64,000 nucleotides of DNA, from positions 5,117,105 through 5,181,104 of the forward strand of contig NZ_ABIZ01000001.1 in assembly GCF_000172155.1 (NCBI RefSeq), read 5' to 3'. The notes under the pieces are model-generated. The model saw only the letters and a list, made by a program, of their open reading frames with translations, ran no database searches and was not told the origin of the DNA. This stretch comes from Verrucomicrobium spinosum DSM 4136 = JCM 18804. Lineage in GTDB: Bacteria; Verrucomicrobiota; Verrucomicrobiia; Verrucomicrobiales; Verrucomicrobiaceae. This document shows positions 4,956 through 49,157 of the stretch, one piece after another. The position numbers and the translations under genes are program-made. How positions within the stretch are numbered: the stretch's first letter is position 1; each line of letters begins with the position of its first letter.

Positions 4956-5525
4956 ATGACCCGCCTGGACCTCCGCCAACAACTCGCTGACCTTGATCTC
5001 TCCCATCCCCACCGGACCGACGAAGTGCCCCATCGGGAGAAGATGATCGCGCTGCTGGACGAGCAGGAGGACTGCTTTCACCGCAGCTGTCACCCGGCCC
5101 ATTTCACCGGCAGCGCCCTGGTGGTAAGCGCAGACGGCGCCCGCGCTCTGCTCACCCATCATCGCAAACTCGACTGCTGGCTCCAGTTTGGCGGCCATTG
5201 CGACGGTGATGACAACATCCTACAGGTGGCCCAACGCGAGGCGCTGGAGGAATCCGGTGTGGAGGGGCTCATCGTGGCCTCTACGCGCCCGTTTGATCTG
5301 GACATTCACCCCATTCCAGAGCGCAAAGGTGAGCCAGCCCACTGGCACTATGACGTACGCTACATGCTCATCGCCCCGGAAAATGCGCAATTCGTCACCA
5401 GTGACGAGAGCCACGAACTGCGCTGGTTCACCCCGGAGGAAATGCGGGATCTGCCGCTGAGTGAGGGCATGCAACGCCTGGCGACCAAGTGGGAGGCGAT
5501 TTTGGAGCGGCGTATGTCTCGGTAA
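4956..5525 (+). CDS. Nudix hydrolase
   Basis: This 189-residue protein contains a Nudix box, GHCDGDDNILQVAQREALEE followed by SGV, at about residues 80-102. The REALEE core residues that bind metal are intact. The upstream consensus Glu is replaced by Asp. Family members hydrolyse nucleoside diphosphates linked to another moiety. The C-terminal ELRWFTPEEM motif is typical of the fold. An ATG at 4935 is an alternative start. It begins 37 bases after the lipoprotein gene in the same direction and may be cotranscribed with it. Confidence 0.88.
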   Translation: MTRLDLRQQLADLDLSHPHRTDEVPHREKMIALLDEQEDCFHRSCHPAHFTGSALVVSADGARALLTHHRKLDCWLQFGGHCDGDDNILQVAQREALEESGVEGLIVASTRPFDLDIHPIPERKGEPAHWHYDVRYMLIAPENAQFVTSDESHELRWFTPEEMRDLPLSEGMQRLATKWEAILERRMSR

Positions 5526-5557: not shown

Positions 5558-5636
5558 GTTAGATCGCAGAAAGTTCGCAGCACGCGGGGTGTGCCACTTT
5601 GACTTGGTACGTGCGGAAGCGGGGAGCCCCCCCTCT

Positions 5637-6376
5637 GACCGCGTTTTCACAAACGCAGCCACGAGTTGCTTGTGCAGCGCTGCGGAAGGGAAAGCTCGTG
5701 GATGCATTCGTGAGAATGCGCAGCGGGGCCAAGCGGCCAGGAGATGTGGCTTGGCAGTGTTGGGCACGAGCAACCCCTCTGACCGCGTTTTCACAAACGC
5801 AGCCACGAGTTGCTTATGCAGCGCTGCGGAAGGGAAAGCTCGTGAATGCATTCGTGAGAATGCGTAGGGGGGCAAGCGGCCAGGAGATGTGGCTTGGCAG
5901 TGTTGGGCACGAGCAACCCCTCTGACCGCGTTTTGACAAACGCAGCCACGAGTTGCTTATGCAGCGCTGCGGAAGGGAAAGCTCGTGGATGCATTCGTGA
6001 GAATGCGTAGCGGGGCAAGCGGCCAGGAGATGTGGCTTGGCAGTGTTGGGCACGAGCAACCCCTCTGACCGCGTTTTCACAAACGCAGCCACGAGTTGCT
6101 TATGCAGCGCTGCGGAAGGGAAAGCTCGTGGATGCATTCGTGAGAATGCGCAGCGGGGGCAAGCGGCCAAGAGATGTGGCTTGGCAGTGTTGGGCACGAG
6201 CCCCCCCTCTGACCGCGTTTTCACAAACGCAGCCACGAGTTGCTTATGCAGCGCTGCGGAAGGAAAGCTCGTGGATGCATTCGTGAGAATGCGTAGGGGG
6301 CAAGCGGCCAGGAGATGTGGCTTGGCAGTGTTGGGCACGAGCCCCCCCCTCCGACCGCGTTTTCACAAACGCATCA
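5637..6376. repeat. Tandem array of five ~143-bp structured repeats plus a partial sixth
   Basis: Units begin with GACCGCGTTT at 5637, 5781, 5924, 6067, 6211 and 6353, giving spacings of 144, 143, 143, 144 and 142. The last copy stops after about 22 bases. Copies are nearly identical. Each unit carries perfect short palindromes: GCGTTT-tcac-AAACGC, CCACGAG pairing with CTCGTGG about 30 bases on, GCAGCGCTGC, and GCATTC-gtga-GAATGC. The unit length is not a multiple of three, and open frames across the array exist on both strands without a conserved protein, so it is not a coding repeat. Beyond the array, 6377-6429 holds an 8-nt degenerate run (ACCAAATC, ACCGACTT). Confidence 0.92.
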
Positions 6377-6429
6377 CTGGCTCACCACCCCCCTGAATTA
6401 CCGGTTTACTGAATCACCAAATCACCGAC

Positions 6430-6996
6430 TTACAGCCATTTGCTCACATCAGGCACCATGAAGTCCATCATGCGTCCAAGTAGGGCCTCGACATCGCGGT
6501 CCACCAGAAGCAGCGCATGATGCTCTGGGTGCAGGAGCTCGTTTTCCACCATGGCGTCCAGCATCTTCACGAGGGGATCGTAGTAGCCAGCCACATTGAG
6601 GAGGCCAACCGGCTTGGTGTGGAAACCGAGTTGCAGCCAGGCGAGGACTTCGAACAGCTCCTCCAGGGTGCCATAACCGCCGGGCAGCACCAGGAAACCG
6701 TCGGCGTGGTCCATCATGGCCTGCTTGCGCTCGTGCATGGTCTCCACCTCGATCAACCGGGTCACGCCGCGGTGCTCCTTTTCCAGCTCGACGAGCTTCT
6801 TAGGGATGACGCCGATCACCTCCCCGCCCTGGGCAAGGGCGGCATCTGCCACCGCGCCCATCAGCCCTATGCTGCCCCCGCCGTACACCATGCCCAGTCC
6901 GCTGCGCGCCAGCTTGGCCCCGACCTCTGCCGCCACCTCGGCAAAAACAGGATTGTTTCCGAAACTGGACCCACAATAGACACAGACGCGATGCAT
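6430..6996 (-). CDS. LOG-family nucleoside 5'-monophosphate phosphoribohydrolase
   Basis: This 188-residue Rossmann-fold protein starts at MHRVCVYCGSSFGNNP. It has GGGSIGLMG near residue 40 and the diagnostic PGGYGTLEE near residue 115, the catalytic signature of the Lonely Guy family (TIGR00730). Family members cleave ribose-5-phosphate from nucleoside monophosphates such as AMP and can form cytokinin bases in plant-associated organisms. Length is as expected. Frame extends upstream to 7167 but the Met at 6996 begins the conserved fold. The 261-base gap to the next gene is divergent; I see no other feature in it. Confidence 0.92.
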   Translation of the reverse strand: MHRVCVYCGSSFGNNPVFAEVAAEVGAKLARSGLGMVYGGGSIGLMGAVADAALAQGGEVIGVIPKKLVELEKEHRGVTRLIEVETMHERKQAMMDHADGFLVLPGGYGTLEELFEVLAWLQLGFHTKPVGLLNVAGYYDPLVKMLDAMVENELLHPEHHALLLVDRDVEALLGRMMDFMVPDVSKWL

Positions 6997-7257
6997 GGTG
7001 CAATGCATGATGATCGCTCCGGCGCGATCCGGCAACCGCGAATGCGATGCCCCCTTTCTGATCTGGCCCAAGAAAATCCCGCCGATCCGCGTTATCCCAA
7101 GTGTCGAACTGTCTCTGCCAGATGCCTCTCCCAGCCAGACTGCAAAAAGGCCAACGACCCGCGTCACAGCCGGGCGGGAAGTGACAAAAATGGGTGAATG
7201 TCTGCCATCGTCAACGACGTCAGTTTCTGCTAGGCTTTGCCAAACGCTATTTTCTCC

Positions 7258-10200
7258 ATGAAAACCCGAGCATTCTTTGCTGCGCTCTGCGCGCTTTTTG
7301 CAGGCCTCTCACCTGTTCCCGCTTCCGCCGTGGAACTTGTCATTGAGCCTGACACCCTCTCCCCGTCCTCCACCGTCGAGCTGCGATTCGACACGCCCAT
7401 GGTGGGCAAGGATCGCGTCGGCTCCGTGGAGCAGGCGTCTCCCCTGGTGGCCGCCCCGGCGGTGAAGGGCGAGTTCCGCTGGACCAGCTCTCGCAGCGGG
7501 CAGTTCCGCTTTACCCAGCCGCCCTCGTTTGCCACGAGCTACAAGTTTGCCTTGCGGCCGGGAATGAAAGATGTCGAGGGGACCGCGGTGGAGGCGACGG
7601 ACTTGGGCGAGTTCGCCACGGAGGGGCTGAAGGTGGCCGATGAATGGCGGGCCTACCCCTACTACTCCGGCGATTCCGCCCAGCGCACCCCGTTTTACAT
7701 TCTGCAGTTCAACGACCGGGTGAATCCGGCGGAGATCGCCAGGCAAGCCTACTTTGTGAGCAAGTCCAGCCCCGCACGGGTGCCCGCCACCGCCCGCCTG
7801 GCCACGGGGAAGGACTTCAAAAAGCAGTACCATGCTGAGCTGGTGCAGACCTGGGAGGAGCAGATCGCAGGCACGAAGCCCACGATCGGGCTGACCGACA
7901 CCCGGCCCAACGCGATCGTTCTGGAAACAGCGTCTCCCCTGCCCATCGGTCAGGATTGGACGCTCGTGCTGCCGGCGACAATCGCCAATGCGAGCGGCAA
8001 CGCCACCCTGGAAGGCGATGACACACGGGCGTGGGGAAGCATTCTCCCGCTGGGCATCAAGCGCCTCGTGGCCGAGCCTCACCTTGACCGGCCGCACTCG
8101 ATCGACATCCTCTTTAACAAGGCAATCAGCAGCAATGATATCCCGCCTGCCCAGGCCGCCCAGCGCATCGCCCCCTTCATCCATGTGGAGCCGCCCGTGC
8201 CGGGCCTGAAGGTGGAGGCCAGCTACCAGTCTGTCTCCATCACCGGAGAGTTCACCCTGCACCAGCCCTACACCGTGACGCTGGCCGCCGGATTCCAGGG
8301 TGCCGATGGCCTGGCTCTCGCGACGCGCTCCAGGGACACCGTGACCTTCCGGCCGAGCCCGGTCTATGTCTCCACCACCGCCACCACGAACACCCAGCTC
8401 GCCTCCGGGAAGGGCATCTTCGATGTCTATGCCGCGAACTACAAGGACCTGCGCCTGCGCGTGAAGCAGCTCTCCGACGGTGAACTGCTGAAGGCCCGGG
8501 CCCTGTACGACGAGAGCTACGATCCACACGCGACGGACACAAACAAGTCCGCCCAAAAGGTGAAGGACACCCCGTTTGAAGCCTTCCCCGGCACGGTCAT
8601 CTACGACCAGACCTATGCGAATGACAAGCCCCTCCAGCAGGCCACGTACATGGAGCTGAAGTGGAGAGACATCCTGGGCCAGCGCCCCGCCGCACCGGTT
8701 TTCATTGAGCTGCTGGCGACCGCCCAGGATCAGGCTCCGGGAGGTGCCGTGGTGAACCGGGCGATTGTGGAGTTCACCGACATTGGCCTGCTGGTGAAGG
8801 GCACGGACCAGGAGGCTCTGATTTACGCCTTCTCACTGAAGACCGGCCAACCGCTCACGGGTGTGCAACTCACGCTGGCCGATGAGCAGCGCGGATTTCT
8901 GAAAGTGGCGCAAACGGACGCGCAGGGCTTCGCCACAGTGCCCTCCAAAGGGGCGGAATGGGTGCTGGCCACCAAGGACCAGGACTGCACCTCCATGAAC
9001 ATCGGCAGCCGTGGCGACCGAATCGGCATGTGGGGCCACGGCATCAACATTGCGTGGGAATCCCCTTTCCGCGACCGGTTCGAGACCTTCATCTTCTCCG
9101 ACCGCCCGGTGTACAAGCCCGGTGACACGGCCCATGTGAAGGCCATCACCCGGCATCGCAACGGCGATTCCCTCACGCTGGGAGGCAAGCCCGCCACCGC
9201 CACCATGGTGCTGACGGACGAGCGCAACCGCACGGTCCTGACGAAGCCGGTCACCTTCACCGCCAACGGCACTTGGGCAGATGACATCACCTTCCCGGAC
9301 ACCACCACCGGCTGGTACAGCCTGCGACTGGAGTACCCGAAGATGGACGCCACGGGCAATCCGCTGCCAGCCTCGGCCAACGGGGATGACGAAGACCTGC
9401 AGATCGCCAATCTGGAACTGCGTGTGGATGACTACAAACCCAACACGTTCGAGGTAAAACTGGAGGGCACCCGCAACCGGGTCCTGGGCGACCGGGTGAA
9501 AGTGCCGCTCACGGCCAGGTACTACATGGGCAAGGCCCTCTCCTCCGCCAAGGTGAGCTGGAGCGCCGGTCTCGCGGAAGACTACGTGCCCCCTGCGGAA
9601 TGGGCGGACTATCACTTCGGCGATGCACCCGATTTCTGGCACTACGGTCAGAAAGATCGTGATGATGAGACCGCCGACAGCGACGAGGAAGAGTCCCAGC
9701 TCAGCTGGGGCGCGCACGGCGAGTTGACGCTCAATGACGACGGCACGGTGGACATCGAGATGCCCGCCCCTCCGCTGCACAAGGCCTCCCTGCCGCAAAC
9801 GGTGAGCCTCTATGCGGATGTGACCGACGTAAACCAGCAGACCATCTCCAGCACGACCGAGTTCAAGCTCCCCGGGGCCGACTTCATCGTGGGGGCCAAA
9901 AAGCATAGCTGGTACGCCACCGCAGGCAAGCCGTTCGCCTTTGAGCTGGCCGCCCTCACCCCCCAGGGCCAGAGCTTCACCGCGCCAGTGGGCCTGGATG
10001 TGAAGGTGGAACGCATGGAGTGGAACACGGTGCGTGTGGAAGGTGCAGGTGGGGCCATCACCACCAAGAACCAGTCCCGGATCATTGAGGAGCTCAAGAC
10101 CTCCGTGCAGCTCAGCAGCAGCAATGGCCGGGCCAGTGCAGGCACCCTGAGCTTCACCCCCAAGCAGGGCGGCACTTATTTCCTCACGGCCACCGCCGCG

Positions 10201-13077
10201 GATGCCCAGGGGCGCACCGTGCTCACCCGGGTGCCTTTCTACGCGGTGGGAGGCAAAGGGTTCCCCTGGTCCCTGGAAGATGGCAGCCGCATCACCCTGC
10301 AGCCGGACAAGACGACCGTGAAGCCGGGCGAAGAAGTCAGCATCGTGGTGAAGACACCCTTCGCCGGCCAGGCCTTGGTGACGGTGGAACGCAACAGCGT
10401 GCTGCGCCATCTGGTGGCCCCCGTTTCGCCCGAGAATCCGGTGGTAAAACTGAAAATGACAGAGGAAGACGGCCCGAATGTCTTCGTCTCCGTGATCGTG
10501 ATTCGCGGTGCAGCCGACAGCCCCCAGCCGGACCCCATGCCAGAGTACAAGGTGGGCTATTGCGAGCTTACCGTGCCCTCCGACAGGAAGCGCCTCTTTG
10601 TGGAGGCCAAGCCCTCCAGCGACACGGTACGCCCGGGTGAAGAGCTCAGTGTGACCGCCACCGTGACGGATGCAGGGAAACAACCTGTGGCCGGTGCCGA
10701 TGTCACTCTCTATGCAGTGGACGAGGGCGTGCTGAGCCTGATGAACTACCTCACGCCACAGCCGTTCGAGTTCTTCCACATGCCCATGGCCCTGGCCGTG
10801 AACAGCTACAGCACCCTGGACTCCCTGCTGGAAGAGGCCCTGGATGACCGCTATCGCGGGAACAAGGGCATTGTCATCGGTGGGGGGGGCGACGACGCCG
10901 ACCCCAGTGCCGCCCTGCGCAAGAATTTCGTGGCCACCGCCCTGTGGAGCGCCACGCTGACCACCGACGCCCAAGGCAAGGTGAACGCCACCTTCAAGGC
11001 CCCTGACAGCCTCACCCGCTATCGCGTCATGGCAGTCGCCGCCAAGGACGCAGATCGCTTTGGCAGTGGCGAGTCCAAGTTCGTGGTGAACAAGCCGCTC
11101 ATGGTGGACCCGGTGGTACCGCGCTTTGCCCATCTGGGCGATGAAATCCTCATCAAGGGGATCGTCCATAACACGACGCCACACGATGGCAATGTAGAGC
11201 TCGAACTGACTCTGGATGACAATGCCATCCTCATCACCGAGCAGCGTCCGTTTGCCCTCGTGGGCGTGCGGAACCGCATCACCATGAATGCCAGCCGCAG
11301 CGAGCGCCGCCCCATCACTCTGAAGGCTGGCGAAACGGTCGCTGTGGCCTTCCCGGTGCGCTTTGTGAAGACCGGCACCACCACGTGGAAGTGGCAGGTG
11401 CGGACCACCACCTGGGCCCCCGGGGCTCCAGCCCTGAGCGATGCAGTGGAGAGCAAGTTCGAGGTAAATTCCCCAATCCCGGCGCTGCGTGAGGTGCAGT
11501 ACTTTGAGCTGACCTCCGCCTCCGGCAGCCAGAACCTGCTACAACGGATCAATCCCCAGCTGCTGGAGAGCGAAGGCGATCTGAACCTGAGCTTCAGCCA
11601 GAGCCGTCTCTATGAGGCGCGGGATGCGCTGGACCAGACGCTGCACTACCCCTATGGCTGTGTGGAGCAGACCAGCTCCGCCACCCTGCCCTGGCTGGCC
11701 CTGTCCCGCTATGAGGCGATGTTCCCGGATCTGCTGCAGAAGGCCAAGGCGAATGACGCCATCAGCAAAGGCGTGCGCCGCCTCCTGGCCATGCAGACCG
11801 ACTCCGGCGGCCTCTCCTACTGGCCCGGCGGTGATACCCCCGTGTACTGGGGCAGTGCCTATGGAGCCTTTGTCCTGATGAAGGCCAAGGAATGGGGTGT
11901 CCCAGTGCCTCAGGACTCCCTGGACAAGCTCACGGACTACCTCTCCAAGGGGCTTCGGGAGTTTGACCTCGCCGCCAGCACGGAGAACGAGAAGCTGACG
12001 GACGCCGCCATGGGCCTTTACGTCCTGGCCAAGGCAGGCAAGACAGAGCCCGCCTACGCTACACTGCTCTTCCAGCGTCGTGAGAAGCTGCCAGAGACGG
12101 CGCGTCTCTACCTGGCTCTCTCCATGTGCCTCAACAATGCCGCCCCCCGCCAGATCGCGGAGCTCGTGAAGGCACCTGCCAAGCGCACCCCACAGCATCG
12201 CTACTGGGCAGCGCCAGAGCTGGCCCATCCGCTGCGCCTCCTGGTGGCCACCCACCTGGGCATGAAGGCTGAGGCACAGGCCGCCGCCACGGAACTGCTG
12301 CGCACCCGCACGGGCCGCGGTGACTGGGGCACGACCTTTGGCAATGCCTGGAGCCTGCTTGCCCTGAGCGCCGCGGAACGCCCCACCAAGGACGCAGCTC
12401 CAAACCCGCTCACCCTGGTGGCCAACTGGCAGGGCACCCCCAACCAGGTGGTACTGGGAGACAACCTGGCCAGCCAGGCCATCCAGTTCCCGCTCAAGCG
12501 CAACGGTAGCCCAGCTCCCCTGAGCGTGGCTCTGCCTGACACACGCCCGGTGATGGGCCGCCTGGAAGTGAAGGCCTACCCAGACCTGAAGACCTTCCAG
12601 CCAGTGTCCAAGGGATTCACCATCCGCCGCAAGTACGAGCGACTCACGCCCATCGGCACGCGTGAGGCGGCCAAGAACCTCCGCGTGGGCGACCTCATCG
12701 TGGTGACTCTCGACATCACCGTGGACAAGCCCAACCGCTACATGGCCATCAACGATCCGCTGCCCAGCGTGTTCGAACCCGTCAATCCGGAGTTCGTCAC
12801 CCAGAACCAGCGCCAGAATGAAGAAGGCGAGGACAATGCCTGGTTCTGCGACCATCGCGAACTGCGCAGTGACCGCGCCCTCTTCTTCACCAACGACGCC
12901 ACAGATCAGGGCCAGTTTGAGCTGAAGTACCTGGCCCGTGTCATCGCTGAAGGGGATGTCATCGTGCCGCCCACCCGCATCGAGGCCATGTATGAGCCCA
13001 ATCACTACGGCCTCGGTGAGATCCAGCGCGTCATGACCCTGCCCATGGGTGATGGCAGCGACGTGGTGGCGCGGTAA
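7258..13077 (+). CDS. Bacterial alpha-2-macroglobulin with intact thioester motif
   Basis: This 1,939-residue exported protein has a signal peptide of about 24 residues ending ASA, with no lipobox cysteine, unlike Escherichia coli YfhM. The macroglobulin repeats include the typical YKPGDTAHVKAITRHRNG and YAVDEGVLSL segments. The thioester motif CVEQ starts at Cys1468 in YPYGCVEQTSS, followed by the alpha/alpha-barrel thioester domain. Such proteins trap proteases in the periplasm. The family is classically paired with PbpC, found here 1.4 kb downstream with a RAYT gene between. An in-frame upstream ATG at 7237 would extend the leader by seven residues. Confidence 0.95.
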   Translation: MKTRAFFAALCALFAGLSPVPASAVELVIEPDTLSPSSTVELRFDTPMVGKDRVGSVEQASPLVAAPAVKGEFRWTSSRSGQFRFTQPPSFATSYKFALRPGMKDVEGTAVEATDLGEFATEGLKVADEWRAYPYYSGDSAQRTPFYILQFNDRVNPAEIARQAYFVSKSSPARVPATARLATGKDFKKQYHAELVQTWEEQIAGTKPTIGLTDTRPNAIVLETASPLPIGQDWTLVLPATIANASGNATLEGDDTRAWGSILPLGIKRLVAEPHLDRPHSIDILFNKAISSNDIPPAQAAQRIAPFIHVEPPVPGLKVEASYQSVSITGEFTLHQPYTVTLAAGFQGADGLALATRSRDTVTFRPSPVYVSTTATTNTQLASGKGIFDVYAANYKDLRLRVKQLSDGELLKARALYDESYDPHATDTNKSAQKVKDTPFEAFPGTVIYDQTYANDKPLQQATYMELKWRDILGQRPAAPVFIELLATAQDQAPGGAVVNRAIVEFTDIGLLVKGTDQEALIYAFSLKTGQPLTGVQLTLADEQRGFLKVAQTDAQGFATVPSKGAEWVLATKDQDCTSMNIGSRGDRIGMWGHGINIAWESPFRDRFETFIFSDRPVYKPGDTAHVKAITRHRNGDSLTLGGKPATATMVLTDERNRTVLTKPVTFTANGTWADDITFPDTTTGWYSLRLEYPKMDATGNPLPASANGDDEDLQIANLELRVDDYKPNTFEVKLEGTRNRVLGDRVKVPLTARYYMGKALSSAKVSWSAGLAEDYVPPAEWADYHFGDAPDFWHYGQKDRDDETADSDEEESQLSWGAHGELTLNDDGTVDIEMPAPPLHKASLPQTVSLYADVTDVNQQTISSTTEFKLPGADFIVGAKKHSWYATAGKPFAFELAALTPQGQSFTAPVGLDVKVERMEWNTVRVEGAGGAITTKNQSRIIEELKTSVQLSSSNGRASAGTLSFTPKQGGTYFLTATAADAQGRTVLTRVPFYAVGGKGFPWSLEDGSRITLQPDKTTVKPGEEVSIVVKTPFAGQALVTVERNSVLRHLVAPVSPENPVVKLKMTEEDGPNVFVSVIVIRGAADSPQPDPMPEYKVGYCELTVPSDRKRLFVEAKPSSDTVRPGEELSVTATVTDAGKQPVAGADVTLYAVDEGVLSLMNYLTPQPFEFFHMPMALAVNSYSTLDSLLEEALDDRYRGNKGIVIGGGGDDADPSAALRKNFVATALWSATLTTDAQGKVNATFKAPDSLTRYRVMAVAAKDADRFGSGESKFVVNKPLMVDPVVPRFAHLGDEILIKGIVHNTTPHDGNVELELTLDDNAILITEQRPFALVGVRNRITMNASRSERRPITLKAGETVAVAFPVRFVKTGTTTWKWQVRTTTWAPGAPALSDAVESKFEVNSPIPALREVQYFELTSASGSQNLLQRINPQLLESEGDLNLSFSQSRLYEARDALDQTLHYPYGCVEQTSSATLPWLALSRYEAMFPDLLQKAKANDAISKGVRRLLAMQTDSGGLSYWPGGDTPVYWGSAYGAFVLMKAKEWGVPVPQDSLDKLTDYLSKGLREFDLAASTENEKLTDAAMGLYVLAKAGKTEPAYATLLFQRREKLPETARLYLALSMCLNNAAPRQIAELVKAPAKRTPQHRYWAAPELAHPLRLLVATHLGMKAEAQAAATELLRTRTGRGDWGTTFGNAWSLLALSAAERPTKDAAPNPLTLVANWQGTPNQVVLGDNLASQAIQFPLKRNGSPAPLSVALPDTRPVMGRLEVKAYPDLKTFQPVSKGFTIRRKYERLTPIGTREAAKNLRVGDLIVVTLDITVDKPNRYMAINDPLPSVFEPVNPEFVTQNQRQNEEGEDNAWFCDHRELRSDRALFFTNDATDQGQFELKYLARVIAEGDVIVPPTRIEAMYEPNHYGLGEIQRVMTLPMGDGSDVVAR

Positions 13078-13138
13078 GGCCCGCTGCGCGGGGGACACAA
13101 GACTTGAACTCACAGGTGTAAGCAGACGTTATCGGCCA

Positions 13139-13169
13139 CAGTGCCCGGGTGGGATTCGCCCGGGCACTG
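13139..13169. other. Perfect 11-bp hairpin before the RAYT gene
   Basis: CAGTGCCCGGG and CCCGGGCACTG are separated by nine bases. There is no T-tract, so an intrinsic terminator is less likely than a REP-like element or a rho-independent stem of another kind. It sits between the macroglobulin stop and the transposase start. Confidence 0.75.
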
Positions 13170-13208
13170 GGTGGTTCAGGACACAACCCAATCGAAGCGT
13201 ATCTCTCC

Positions 13209-13907
13209 ATGAAACTGGACTCTTTACCCGCTGAGGAGCCGTTGGCGTGCGTGGGTGAGGGGCTGATGTCGGAGGAGGAAGGCGATCGCTCGTTTTATCT
13301 GCCACGCTTGACTGAGGACGCCTATCAGGGGCTGGCCGTGGTGCACTGGACACTCACTCTGAAGCGGGGCGACGAGTTCCAACTGGATGAGTTGTTCCAT
13401 CTGCGGCTGCGCGAATGCATGATGCATACCTTCGCCAGAGAAGAAGGCGGAGGGGTAATCTGCCCCGTGTATTGCCTCATGCCGGATCACTTGCATCTGA
13501 TCTGGATGGGTACCGATGAACGAGGTGGGGGCGTGGGGGATCAACAGAAGCTGATGGCTTTTTTCCGTACGCACCTGAAGCGAGCCATCTCCCCTGCCCG
13601 GCTGCAGCATCAGGCGCACGACCATGTGTTGAGAGAGGATGAGCGGCGTCGGAAAATGTTTGCCACCGTGTGCAACTACATCTTGGGAAATCCTGTGGAG
13701 GCAGGTCTGGTTAAGACCGCGGAAGAGTGGCCTTATTCAGGCTGTGTGGTGCTCGGATATCCGGATTTACAGCCCCTACAGGAAAACTTCTGGGGCGTGT
13801 TCTGGAGGATCTATTGGAAAAAGCGCGGCGAAGAAAAGCGGGTCAGAGATATCGCCCGAAAGTTGAAGGACAAGGAAGACAGGGATTCCGGAAAGGAGGG
13901 GCATTGA
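13209..13907 (+). CDS. REP-associated tyrosine transposase (RAYT, Y1-Tnp family)
   Basis: This 232-residue protein has the HUH-type signature YCLMPDHLHLIWMG (His-Leu-His metal-binding pair) near residue 97. It also has a downstream helix with VCNYILGNPVEAGLV carrying the candidate catalytic Tyr. These define the Y1 transposase (IS200-like) fold of RAYTs, single-copy domesticated transposases thought to mobilise REP palindromes. Length fits the family. A hairpin precedes the gene and two 270-bp copies of a palindrome-containing repeat follow it, the usual RAYT setting. The ATG at 13209 gives the conserved N-terminus; open frame upstream is non-conserved. Confidence 0.9.
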   Translation: MKLDSLPAEEPLACVGEGLMSEEEGDRSFYLPRLTEDAYQGLAVVHWTLTLKRGDEFQLDELFHLRLRECMMHTFAREEGGGVICPVYCLMPDHLHLIWMGTDERGGGVGDQQKLMAFFRTHLKRAISPARLQHQAHDHVLREDERRRKMFATVCNYILGNPVEAGLVKTAEEWPYSGCVVLGYPDLQPLQENFWGVFWRIYWKKRGEEKRVRDIARKLKDKEDRDSGKEGH

Positions 13908-13932
13908 GATGCCAGCGAACGATCCATCTCCG

Positions 13933-14490
13933 ATGGGTGGACGCGAAGGCGCCAGCCACCAGCTTGCCTACGGCCGCGTTAGCCGAGAGACATCTCCCTC
14001 TGCCCAAGCCCAAACAACACCGTCCGTAGTTGTCGACGTGAGGAGGCACTTACTTCCCCATCTGCCACCCCTCTCCCGCTCAACCGCCCCGCCTGCCCAA
14101 CGCTCGCCCCTCCACCGCGAGGCCCGCGCCATAGACGCCTCAGCTAGTGCCTCCTCACGTCGTCAACTACATGGCCGCTGGGTGGTTGGTCATCAAACAC
14201 CAGTGGGCAAGCGCACAGGCGTCAGCCACCAGCTTGCCTACGACCGCGTTAGCCGAGAGACATCTCCCTCTGCCCAAGCACCACCAACACCGTCCGCAGT
14301 TGACGACGTGAGGAGGCACTTATTTCCCCATCTGCCACTTCTCTCCCACTCAACACCGCCATCTGCCCAACGCCCGCCCATCCTCCGCAAGGCCCGCACT
14401 GCACACGCTTCATCTAGTGCCTCCTCGCGTCGTCAACTACATGGCCGCTGGGTGGTTGGTCATCCATCACCAGTGGGCACACCCCATCCC
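13933..14490. repeat. Two direct 270-bp repeats, each enclosing a long inverted repeat
   Basis: The copies start near 13951 and 14221 and align end to end with scattered differences. Inside each, GTTGACGACGTGAGGAGGCA-type sequence is answered about 95 bases later by its complement (arms 14029-14052 with 14144-14167, and 14299-14320 with 14416-14437). Because 270 is a multiple of three, an open frame from 13909 to 14508 reads through both copies, but it looks like repeat-driven noise. The array ends just before the pbpC ribosome-binding site. Confidence 0.88.
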
Positions 14491-14493
14491 CAA

Positions 14494-14502
14494 GGAGGTG
14501 CG
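14494..14502 (+). promoter_or_regulatory. Strong ribosome-binding site of pbpC
   Basis: AAGGAGGTG lies just upstream of the ATG at 14505. Such a strong site is unusual among the genes of this window and fixes the start. Confidence 0.8.
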
Positions 14503-14504
14503 GC

Positions 14505-16946
14505 ATGAACCCCGATCCCACTTCCCCAGCCTCGCCACGTCCCCCCACCTTCAAACGCCGCGTCCTGCGCGCGGCCCTCTGCTGCGCCTGCCTCTTCGCC
14601 CTCGGCTGGTGGATCCTCCCCTGGGCCGTACCGCTCCCGGAAGGACTCCTGAAACCTCAAAACGTGTCCCCCACCTTCCTGGCAGCAGACGGCACACCTC
14701 TCCGCCAACTGCTCACCGAGGATGGCCAACGCGTCGGAGCACCCGTGCCTTTTGACCAAATCCCTCCGGCCCTGCTGCACGCCACGCTCGCCGCGGAGGA
14801 CAAACGTTTCTTCAGCCACAGCGGGGTGGATCTCCTCGCCATCAGCCGGTCGGCGCGGGATAACTTTCGCCATGGCCAAGTGGTGTCGGGGGCCTCTACC
14901 ATCACACAACAGCTCATCAAGATCTCCGCAGAGAAGCGCAAGCGCCGCAACCTGCTGACGAAGATCACCGAGGCCCTGCAGGCCCGACGCCTGGAGATGT
15001 CCTGGAGCAAGGAGCAAATCCTGCCGGAATACCTGCACCGGGTGAGCTATGGCAACCTGCTCACAGGCTGCGGCGGCGCGGCCCAAGGTTATTTCAACAA
15101 ACCCATGCGCGACCTCACCCCTGCGGAGTGCGCCTTCCTGGCCTCCCTGCCCCAGGCGCCATCGCGGCTCAACCCCTTCAAGAACCTGAAGGCGCTCCGC
15201 AAACGCCAGCAGCATGTCTTGAAGAAGATGCAGGAGGCGGGCTGGCTCACGAGCGAAGCCTATGAGCTGGCCATCGCTGAGCCGCTGAAGCTGCAACGCG
15301 GCACGGGAGGGTTCAGCGCTCCGCACGCCGTGGAGTTGCTGCTACAGCAATGCAGCGCGGACGTCCCGACCGAATCACCCCCCGGCACCTTCCGGACGAC
15401 GATCGCCCCGGACCTCCAGCGTCGGGTAGAAGCGATCCTGCAGCATCGCATGAGCCTGCTGGAAGGCAAACACGTCACCCAGGCAGCGGCCGTGGTGCTG
15501 GAGAATGCCACCGGCAGGGTGTTGGCGCTGGCGGGGTCGCGCGACTTTTTCGGCACCGACAGCGGCCAGATCAATGGGGCTTGGGCACCGCATTCACCGG
15601 GCTCCGCACTCAAGCCCTTCACCTATCTCCTTGCTCTGGAGCGCGGTTTCACCACGGCCAGCATCATCCCCGATCTGCCGGTGGAGTACACCACGCCCAC
15701 GGGCCTCTACCGACCGGAAAACTACGACCGTAAGCTCAACGGCCCCGTGACGCTGCGCACCGCCCTGGGCAGTTCCCTGAACATTCCGGCCGTGAAGGTG
15801 CTGCAACAACTGGGTGGGGAGACGTTGCTTCTCAAAACCCTGCAAAACGCCGGCATCACCACCCTGGACCAGGCGGCGGATCACTACGGGCTGGGCCTGA
15901 CGATCGGCAATGCCCCAGTCCGCCTGCTGGAGCTGGCCAATGCCTACGCCACCATCGCCCGCCTGGGAAAAAACCAGCCCTGGACACTGCTCCAGCCGGC
16001 CAGCACCGCCCCGCCGGCAGCAGAACCTGCCCCGCTGTTCCAGCCCACCTGTTGTTTCCTCATTGCGGACATCCTCTCCGACAACCAGGCACGGGTGCTG
16101 ACCTTCGGCCCCCACTCCGTCATCCGCATGCCCTTCCCCTGTGCGGTAAAGACGGGCACGAGCACCAACTACCGGGACAACTGGACGATGGGCTTCACCC
16201 CGGAGTTCACCGTGGGGGTGTGGGTGGGGAACTTCGACAACACCCCGATGAACCAGGTTTCAGGAGTCACGGGAGCGGGCCCGGTCTTCCGGGAGATCTT
16301 CAGCCACCTGCATGACACCCGGGGCACCTCCTGGTACGCGCCCCCCGCAGACCTCATCCGGGCCAGGGTGGACCCTCGCAACGGCCGCCGCATCACGGCG
16401 CAGTCCCCGCTGGTGGGGATGAGCCGGGAGGAGTACTTCCTGCCCGGCACCCTGCCACCACCGGCCCTTTCTGCAGACTACCAGACGGGTACGGGCCGGG
16501 CCTACCTGCCCATGGAGTACTCCGCCTGGCTGGCAGGCAGCGACCACTGGCTCACCGGCATGGTCGCCCTGCGCCCGCGGGATCCGCTCATGACGCCCCC
16601 CCGCATCACCACCCCGCTGGACGGCACCGTGTTTTACCTCGATCCCGACCTGCGCGACCAGGGCGGGCGGCTGATGCTGGAGGCCTCCCCCGAGGGCCTG
16701 CAGTGGACCTCTCCCACGCTGGAGATCGCCCTGGACGAGGACCAGCCCTATGCCCTGCTCACCGTGGGGCACCATGAACTGGTGGCCCGCCAGCCCGGCA
16801 GCGGCGATCTGGCCAGGGTCCGCATAGAGGTGCGCCCGCCGCCCTCAGCGGCCCTGCGCCGGCCCGGGCTTCTCAGCGTCCCGATTCCCGCCCAGCCAGG
16901 CGCGCCAGTGGGGCAGCAGCCACAGGGCGAAGACCAGCGTCCATAG
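14505..16946 (+). CDS. pbpC: Penicillin-binding protein 1C (bifunctional transglycosylase/transpeptidase)
   Basis: This 813-residue protein has an N-terminal membrane anchor at about residues 24-45. The GT51 glycosyltransferase domain has AAEDKRFFSHSGVD (catalytic Glu98) and GASTITQQLIK. The penicillin-binding transpeptidase domain has SALK (Ser367 to Lys370), an SSLN motif, and KTG (549-551) in VKTGTSTNYRDNW. The C-terminal 100 or so residues fit the BiPBP_C domain of PbpC. It polymerises and crosslinks peptidoglycan. Pairing with alpha-2-macroglobulin suggests repair of the wall when invading proteases breach the envelope. Its last 102 bases overlap the oppositely oriented exporter gene. 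Confidence 0.95.
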   Translation: MNPDPTSPASPRPPTFKRRVLRAALCCACLFALGWWILPWAVPLPEGLLKPQNVSPTFLAADGTPLRQLLTEDGQRVGAPVPFDQIPPALLHATLAAEDKRFFSHSGVDLLAISRSARDNFRHGQVVSGASTITQQLIKISAEKRKRRNLLTKITEALQARRLEMSWSKEQILPEYLHRVSYGNLLTGCGGAAQGYFNKPMRDLTPAECAFLASLPQAPSRLNPFKNLKALRKRQQHVLKKMQEAGWLTSEAYELAIAEPLKLQRGTGGFSAPHAVELLLQQCSADVPTESPPGTFRTTIAPDLQRRVEAILQHRMSLLEGKHVTQAAAVVLENATGRVLALAGSRDFFGTDSGQINGAWAPHSPGSALKPFTYLLALERGFTTASIIPDLPVEYTTPTGLYRPENYDRKLNGPVTLRTALGSSLNIPAVKVLQQLGGETLLLKTLQNAGITTLDQAADHYGLGLTIGNAPVRLLELANAYATIARLGKNQPWTLLQPASTAPPAAEPAPLFQPTCCFLIADILSDNQARVLTFGPHSVIRMPFPCAVKTGTSTNYRDNWTMGFTPEFTVGVWVGNFDNTPMNQVSGVTGAGPVFREIFSHLHDTRGTSWYAPPADLIRARVDPRNGRRITAQSPLVGMSREEYFLPGTLPPPALSADYQTGTGRAYLPMEYSAWLAGSDHWLTGMVALRPRDPLMTPPRITTPLDGTVFYLDPDLRDQGGRLMLEASPEGLQWTSPTLEIALDEDQPYALLTVGHHELVARQPGSGDLARVRIEVRPPPSAALRRPGLLSVPIPAQPGAPVGQQPQGEDQRP

Positions 16947-48452: not shown

Positions 48453-49157
48453 TTAGATGATGTTGAGTTTGCTAATGCCTGGGGGAGGTTTGGTTCCTTG
48501 ATGTTGTTGATTCCTTGAGTAATCAGGCTCCTCGAAGAGTCCTTGATAGTTCTTCTCAATGCTGAAATTGATCGCAGCGATGGCGCGCGCCTCTCCCCAT
48601 CCTTGGGCTTTCTTGAGTTGCTTGCTTCGACAAGAAGGCGTCAGGGGCTTCCGCTTCTCTTTGAGGTGTTGTTCCCACTCCTGCCACGCGTTTGCAAACC
48701 CGGTAGAGGTGAAGGGCAGGATTACTGAATTCAACAATTCATTATTCCTGTTCTTCCTGTTACTGTCCCGAACCTCCTTCGGGGGTAGGCGAACCTCCTT
48801 CGGGGGTTCCTGAATTGACCCCCGAAGCAGGTTCGGGGGTTGATGGCCCGCCACCCCCGAAGCAGGTTCGGGGGTCAGGAGTTGAGCATGCCGCCCTTTG
48901 TGAACCTGCGGGTGAAGTAGGTATGAAGACTTGCAGCCAGAGTTCCTAACAATTTTGAGATGCCCGCCTTCCTCCAATTCCGAGAGCGCGTTGCAGATTG
49001 CGCGATCTGAATAGCCTGTATCCAGTTGCATGCGACCGATAGAAGGATTGCATTGGCCGGTCCTCTCATTGTACCGGGCCGCGAGCGCGTTGAGCACTCC
49101 CTTTTGGGTAGATGACGCGTCCACGTCCAGGCACAACATTACCATTTGTCCTCCCAT
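48453..49157 (-). CDS. Phage-type replication initiator (HTH) with internal palindromes
   Basis: This 234-residue protein begins MGGQMVMLCLDVDASSTQKG. The N-terminal winged helix (NPSIGRMQLDTGYSDRAICN) resembles Rep/phage O-type helix-turn-helix initiators. The middle encodes a Pro-rich stretch, EPPKEVRLPPKEVRD, across four palindromic repeats, as in lambdoid O genes whose origin lies inside the coding sequence. An AAGGAGG site in the upstream small gene fixes the start. Confidence 0.75.
   Translation of the reverse strand: MGGQMVMLCLDVDASSTQKGVLNALAARYNERTGQCNPSIGRMQLDTGYSDRAICNALSELEEGGHLKIVRNSGCKSSYLLHPQVHKGRHAQLLTPEPASGVAGHQPPNLLRGSIQEPPKEVRLPPKEVRDSNRKNRNNELLNSVILPFTSTGFANAWQEWEQHLKEKRKPLTPSCRSKQLKKAQGWGEARAIAAINFSIEKNYQGLFEEPDYSRNQQHQGTKPPPGISKLNII
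48768..48875. promoter_or_regulatory. Candidate replication origin (iteron-like palindromes) inside the initiator gene
   Basis: Four related palindromes of the form CCCCGAA-N5-TTCGGGG: 48768-48784, 48791-48808 (variant GAACCTCC core), 48818-48840 and 48853-48875 (the last two are identical, ACCCCCGAA and TTCGGGGGT arms with GCAGG between). The spacing is close to regular, and an A/T-richer stretch (48721-48760) lies beside them. Confidence 0.6.

Follow-up and report, generated by a model that had tools for sequence, protein, structure and literature searches.

A tandem array of five nearly identical 143-bp units lies between two genes that face each other in Verrucomicrobium spinosum DSM 4136, within the 64,000-nucleotide stretch of DNA analyzed here (the window). 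The question raised by this locus is what these units are and how they came to stand in a row. The array very probably consists of REP dimers that were spread by a RAYT, were locally expanded and homogenized, and survive mainly between convergent genes.

The repeat unit and its REP element

TRF placed the array at 5630-6373 (period 143, 5.2 copies, 96% matches, 1% indels), and copies of its first stem start at spacings of 144, 143, 143, 144, and 142, in agreement with the initial annotation, which had described five copies at 142-144-base intervals. All three perfect stems named there were located: GCGTTT/AAACGC and GCATTC/GAATGC form hairpins within the unit, and CCACGAG/CTCGTGG is a pairing between the tails of two adjacent hairpins. 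The two hairpins of each 143-bp unit are the same element in opposite orientations. The array and its neighbors are composed as follows.

4956-5525, + strand: left neighbor, probable Nudix hydrolase gene, pointing into the array (ORF; weak NCBIfam match, E 0.0094)
5630-6381, no strand: tandem array with a period of about 143 bp, in which a leading REP is followed by five head-to-head REP dimers and their spacers (TRF, repeat search, model matches)
5635-5669, + strand: single leading REP with its tag facing outward, to the right (model R1, 53 bits)
5691-5813, no strand: head-to-head REP dimer 1, REPs 5691-5725 (-) and 5779-5813 (+) (model R1, 42 and 53 bits)
5835-5956, no strand: head-to-head REP dimer 2, REPs 5835-5869 (-) and 5922-5956 (+) (model R1, 41.5 and 52.3 bits)
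5978-6099, no strand: head-to-head REP dimer 3, REPs 5978-6012 (-) and 6065-6099 (+) (model R1, 45.2 and 53 bits)
6121-6243, no strand: head-to-head REP dimer 4, REPs 6121-6155 (-) and 6209-6243 (+) (model R1, 42 and 53 bits)
6264-6381, no strand: head-to-head REP dimer 5, REPs 6264-6298 (-) and 6351-6381 (+), the second of them without tag region (model R1, 46.2 and 26.3 bits; sequence)
6430-6999, - strand: right neighbor, TIGR00730/LOG family gene, pointing into the array (TIGR00730, E 4.9e-59)

The array sits in a convergent gap, with the Nudix (+) and LOG (-) genes facing each other; the left neighbor presumably carries a Nudix motif. A covariance model of the single hairpin (R1), built from fetched loci that include the window array, found 11 copies in the window, all of them inside the array (E 2e-13 to 2e-5), and its best match elsewhere in the window had E 0.16. 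The fold energy of the entire unit is unremarkable (z about -1.2 on either strand, as DNA), and the structural signal resides in the individual hairpins and not in a whole-unit fold. The array had been described as neither coding nor CRISPR, and both statements hold. A coding repeat was rejected on the TRF period of 143 and the stem spacings. Regularly spaced palindromic units are common to this array and to CRISPR arrays, but here the entire 143-bp unit is repeated and the spacers are alike within the array, unlike the unique spacers of a CRISPR array.

The hairpin proved to be a well-defined element. Altogether 251 REPs from 28 fetched loci conform to one consensus, which on the tag strand reads as a 5'-GTRG tag, an 8-bp stem, and a GTNA loop. 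The tag is GTGG in 197 of the 251 copies and the canonical GTAG in a minority of 40. Among 82 distinct REPs, the six inner stem pairs are paired in 96.7% of cells, and compensatory change was seen in 85 double-change cells, compared with 28.3 in shuffles and at most 6 in slid controls. The outermost stem pair covaries as well (CG 69, AU 10, GU 1, UA 1, other 1; n = 82). The pair just inside it is C.A on the aligned strand in 78 of the 82 REPs, which corresponds to a T.G wobble at the second pair on the tag strand, and this conserved wobble is a fixed strand asymmetry of the stem.

Neighboring REPs follow each other in a regular manner, with head-to-head steps of 78-93 nt in 105 of 106 cases and tail-to-tail steps of 44-83 nt in 91 of 92; same-orientation neighbors account for 16 steps, 12 of these in a single locus (L075). 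The head-to-head dimer, two REPs pointing apart across about 50-65 nt, was taken as the element because solo pairs are of the head-to-head kind with their tags outside. The array unit is taken as one such dimer together with a short spacer that is largely specific to its array; most arrays differ in the unit body and have the REPs in common. Thus the palindrome is of the 20-40 nt kind and kept by base pairing, has an unpaired GTRG tag at one foot (GTAG is also found in RAYT-linked repeats of relatives), occurs in many extragenic copies (78 REPs in 1.194 Mb), and has two inverted REPs as its unit. By these sequence features, the hairpins are GTAG-superfamily REP elements in head-to-head dimers of the REPIN/BIME type.

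BLAST of one unit against the V. spinosum genome gave 132 matches, only 6 of them in the window array. Tandem arrays were present in 23 of the 28 fetched loci, all of which had been selected for matching the window-array unit, and their period is 129-176 bp (292 in one); in the array of L072, the motif scanner recognized no REP within the array itself. Additional arrays came from the model search, one of them with 19.8 copies. Since this genome-wide model search scored 150 of 3565 candidates, the copy number rests on a systematic sample, drawn to avoid selection bias, of sixty evenly spaced 19.9-kb pieces (1.194 Mb, 14.5% of the genome). Here the motif scanner found the 78 REPs mentioned above in 12 blocks, with 69 of the REPs in 7 blocks of at least six, and no REP in the same sixty stretches reversed without complementing. 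Scaled from this sample, the whole genome is estimated to hold about 540 REPs in about 80 blocks. A total of 42 blocks was located, 41 plus one from the systematic sample.

Several other repeats were observed alongside. Six arrays (L034, L037, L072, L075, L080, and L086) show a double or triple period (263-453 bp) with alternating unit types, like higher-order satellite repeats. Simple repeats of 7 and 8 bp, with about 14 to 76 copies, lie near several REP arrays (L037:3263-3406, L074:1974-2113, L075:16597-17164, and L078:4351-4464). A second GTAG-tagged hairpin family (GTAGGGCRASCG) forms tandem arrays of 106-142-bp units at G000:C1:2751448-2752489, 7811409-7811878, and 145602-145800, and gave 42 pattern matches in the 14.5% sample compared with 2 in the reversed control. 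At 48799-48875 of the window lies a short tandem repeat with 2.3 copies of a 35-bp unit, which contains GGTTCATGAACC.

RAYT genes and the arrays beside them

The V. spinosum genome gave 39 Y1_Tnp matches. One of the genes, at 4.877 Mb (G000:C1:4876782-4877120), lies between two arrays of the window-array REP family, of 5.6 and 3.1 units, and from this position it is likely to be the cognate RAYT of the family. The protein matches NCBIfam REP_Tyr_transpos (NF047646) with E 1.8e-16 and 60.3 bits, below the equivalog cut-off of 80 bits, and PF01797 (Y1_Tnp) with 29 bits, above the cut-off of 23; it shares 34-43% identity with six aligned relatives, three of which fall below the PF01797 cut-off and two of which have no PF01797 match. 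The HUH motif PDHxH and the tyrosine motif YIxxNP are kept in all seven aligned proteins, and a profile of this seven-protein clade matches TnpA-REP 4er8 (E 5.5e-9), the other five structures listed for it being far weaker (E 0.047 to 0.096) and called transposases. By its motifs, best solved match, and context, we call the 4.877 Mb protein, a divergent relative, a RAYT. A RAYT substrate was among the identities first proposed for the array, and the position of this gene argues for it, the probable partner being the 4.877 Mb RAYT and not the RAYT within the window. The array may also bind a protein, another of the identities proposed at first.

The arrangement is not confined to this gene. Two further RAYTs of the V. 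spinosum genome, at 2.186 and 1.981 Mb, each have an array on either side, built from a different dimer of their own:

L044:763-1413 and 2208-2441; L046:152-970 and 1767-2256: arrays of the two further array-flanked RAYTs (96/97-bp and 144-bp units)

RAYTs between two arrays of their own repeat were also found in G023 and G005; that of L091 (genus g8) lies between two arrays of about 90-bp units, the unit having 80 matches in its own genome. Repeats with GTAG-type tags, inverted or tandem, occur near the gene in all six aligned relatives. From a scan of named genomes, 80 of 425 RAYT relatives were retained, mostly from Verrucomicrobia and Planctomycetes, and 65 of the 80, those with at least 800 bp on both sides, were used for flank counts. 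GTRG inverted repeats within 500 bp were found upstream of 46, downstream of 37, and on both sides of 31 of these 65, compared with 5 of 92 control windows. For tandem arrays within 800 bp, the counts were 14 upstream, 14 downstream, and 5 on both sides, compared with 3 of 92 control windows.

At 13209-14461, the window itself contains a second RAYT, 34% identical to the 4.877 Mb RAYT over the alignment, and behind it two 270-bp tandem copies. Each copy has a 23-25 nt inverted repeat with GTAG or a variant at its start (14026-14050/14146-14170 in one copy, and again in the second). This RAYT and its repeats are located between two genes (7237-16946), a very large ORF of 1946 aa, which we take to be alpha-2-macroglobulin-like from its GCVEQ motif, and a second gene, presumably encoding penicillin-binding protein 1C. 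A link of the window array to the repeat beside this RAYT, suggested earlier from a shared CAGCCAC-AG-TTGC stretch, was rejected, as the likeness is at chance level (model match at 13926, E 1.9).

We propose that the cognate RAYT, an HUH/tyrosine single-strand nuclease, cuts and joins the folded tag strand and has in this way spread single dimers through the genome. Once inserted, the dimer and its adjoining spacer would be amplified at the site, with unequal recombination or replication slippage, favored by the hairpins, as the most likely cause. Recombination or slippage is preferred for this step because array edges miss the hairpin feet and only moderately respect dimer boundaries. Contrary to expectation for RAYT-type cut sites, only 15 of 54 edges lie within 12 nt of a hairpin foot (random 0.50), and 29 of 44 edges lie outside complete dimers (expected 0.44, p 0.006; 10 further edges without recognizable REP nearby were dropped).

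These edges weigh against a different origin, in which the RAYT builds the arrays itself. It would cut equivalent REPs in neighboring units, release a one-period single-stranded circle, and join this into another array REP, array growth then being transposition. The period, dimer plus spacer, is as this would have it, and direct array building keeps some credit because arrays are so common at RAYT genes: each of the three RAYTs at 4.877, 2.186, and 1.981 Mb is flanked on both sides, as are those in G023 and G005, and an array adjoins the gene on one or both sides in 23 of the 65 relatives. The array-specific spacers imply that exchange between arrays must be rare, and three other RAYTs examined in the genome (L047, L049, and L062) have no such array alongside. 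We regard direct building as rather doubtful. Just as tentative is the wider notion that a RAYT clade of the Planctomycetes-Verrucomicrobia group is an array-making enzyme, which would both scatter REP dimers and turn them into satellite-like tandem arrays, those flanking its own gene included. If true, a domesticated single-strand transposase would shape convergent gene junctions across the chromosome.

Gene gaps and sister species

The surroundings of the 41 REP blocks were classified with genes called by a purpose-written codon-usage script, and called ORFs lying mostly within a REP block were dropped before the count. No block lies inside a called gene; 26 are between convergent genes, 8 between two + genes, 6 between two - genes, and 1 between divergent genes. 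Convergent gaps make up 12 of 122 nearby control gaps and 87 of 519 in the systematic sample. The bias depends on block size. Blocks of at least four REPs are between convergent genes in 22 of 26 cases (p 5e-13 against the 87 of 519 control gaps), blocks of three or fewer in 4 of 15 (p 0.30), and the two classes differ with p 0.0005, the cut at four REPs having been selected after the table had been seen. The systematic sample alone, which overlaps the 41-block set, gave 5 of 5 larger and 0 of 5 smaller blocks in convergent gaps, with two blocks at piece ends unclassified. The restriction to convergent gaps of long arrays, but not of short clusters, separates landing sites from growth sites. 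Long arrays would persist mainly between convergent genes, where they avoid separating a gene from its promoter, and selection would filter the sites.

The REP model was searched with E up to 1e-4 in the congeneric drafts G001 and G003, in G007, and in 34 other relatives. With at most 150 candidates scored per genome, it matched at least 141 times in G001, at least 15 in G003, and at least 91 in G007, and 0-4 times in each of the other 34. Ten locus pairs were compared between V. spinosum and G001 (L075 and L085 yielded nothing to compare), and the dimer counts were 4 and 2, 3 and 4, 1 and 1, 7 and 1, 4 and 3, 4 and 3, 1 and 3, 7 and 2, 1 and 2, and 4 and 1, respectively, the last being at a G001 contig end. 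Identity within V. spinosum arrays exceeded that between species at 0.865 versus 0.790, 0.994 versus 0.835, 0.931 versus 0.792, 0.936 versus 0.807, and 0.934 versus 0.734; it was not clearly higher in the second array of L084 (0.823/0.766 versus 0.764) and in L073 (0.929 versus 0.927). Where V. spinosum has a single dimer and G001 an array, identity was 0.949 within the G001 array and 0.883 between species, and 0.853 and 0.694 at another such site; at the L087 site, the two G001 units share an identity of just 0.652. The copy-number differences, and an identity that is mostly higher within arrays than between species, support the recent amplification or gene conversion suggested by the initial annotation. 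Array copies would continue to homogenize one another.

The window array itself is absent from G001, where the same two conserved neighbors are separated by 3.3 kb of other sequence that contains ORFs and no REP, and G003 likewise diverges at the array edge. Among the solo dimers, that of L160 is common to V. spinosum and G001 and absent from G003, where the flanks are altered; that of L082 is common to the same two and replaced by other sequence in G003; and the L076 site has a decayed form in G001 and is not alignable in G003. An exact empty site of one dimer, sought at these three solo loci, was not cleanly obtained; the observations that bear on dimer mobility are copy-number and presence differences between species. 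One orthologous solo dimer shows a compensatory stem change, GCGTTT/AAACGC in V. spinosum and GCGTTC/GAACGC in G001. The two species also have an 8-bp simple repeat of unequal length at the L160 site.

No close relative of the 4.877 Mb RAYT was found in the sister drafts G001 and G003. A G001 contig begins at the place corresponding to this locus, so that loss of the gene and an assembly gap are indistinguishable there. Six fetched G001 contigs (C24, C174, C123, C23, C143, and C173) begin or end within about 330 bp of window-family REPs; one of these six ends adjoins the RAYT locus, and the gene may be missing there through assembly only. REP arrays seem to break draft assemblies in this manner.

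The convergent-gene bias could also reflect a function for which the arrays are retained where two genes end face to face. They might stop transcription in both directions, protect mRNA 3' ends, or relieve supercoiling where transcripts collide, and roles of these kinds have been proposed for E. coli REPs. The 22 of 26 larger blocks in convergent gaps are consistent with this, and so are the compensatory changes that preserve the hairpins, one of them seen at an orthologous solo dimer. The same bias is expected if arrays are merely harmless at such sites, simple consensus scans found no terminator-like site in the window array, and that array is missing from the sister species despite both neighbor genes being conserved there. 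We consider such a function unlikely. A processed noncoding RNA array with the 143-nt unit as its functional product, one of the identities initially proposed, is very improbable: the unit is regular with small stable hairpins, but a search of Rfam 15 at gathering score found only a tRNA in the window and nothing in the array, which rejects a known structured RNA, the consensus scans showed no promoter-like site either, the fold energy is as given above, and the unit body, unlike the REPs, differs between most arrays. Local slipped duplication of an ordinary sequence with no tie to a repeat family, to which the array was to be reduced had neither other copies nor conserved structure existed, can be dismissed despite the 96% identity of its units, as both genome-wide copies (132 BLAST matches, just 6 in the window array; 78 REPs in the 14.5% sample) and covariation were found.

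Relation to known REP systems and significance

Arrays of E. coli BIME-2 are tandem alternations of inverted REPs in extragenic space. The window-family arrays share this alternation and differ by long bodies and spacers that are specific to each array. The REPINs/RAYTs of Pseudomonas and E. coli (PMC3116915, PMC8266576) resemble this family, in the parts of the sources covered, by a unit of two inverted REPs, by an HUH/Tyr RAYT that presumably moves it, and by a recognition of tag and hairpin that in this family would likewise be strand-specific, whereas the RAYT here belongs to a divergent clade and lies between tandem arrays of its dimers.

The closest description is that of the GTAG superfamily (Di Nocera et al. 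2013, PMC3733652). According to the passages covered, its REPs are short palindromes that bear an unpaired tag of the GTAG type on one foot, form head-to-head dimers, and lie mostly between unidirectional and convergent genes; RAYT genes are flanked by repeats, and tandem clusters of REP dimers were already known. The window-array family agrees with these passages in the tagged palindrome, the head-to-head dimers, the extragenic sites, and the repeat-flanked RAYT. It differs from the REPs described there in that its tag is mostly GTGG, most sampled copies are in regular long-period arrays, and restriction to convergent gaps is far stronger for the arrays than for the solos. That study includes a "... 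terrae" species, assigned there to Verrucomicrobia; "spinosum" gave no match in its text, and the window-array family does not appear in the passages covered. A search of the open-access literature, in which subscription papers are mostly missing, returned only this study for RAYTs with Verrucomicrobia and no report of REP arrays or RAYTs in V. spinosum. Nor did the text covered by that search describe a recurrent placement of RAYT genes between two tandem arrays, or a restriction to convergent gaps that holds for arrays and not for solos. The window-array hairpins are a new REP family with a divergent RAYT, and the split between arrays and solos in gene-gap bias is an addition to the site preference published in the passages covered (PMC3733652).

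V. spinosum bears on how REP dimers spread and why some of them become arrays. It offers one genome with three RAYTs, each between two arrays of its own dimer type, and some of the arrays are present at other lengths in a sister species. Because of these three array-flanked RAYTs and the sister arrays of other lengths, array growth, homogenization, and their dependence on the RAYT are directly testable.
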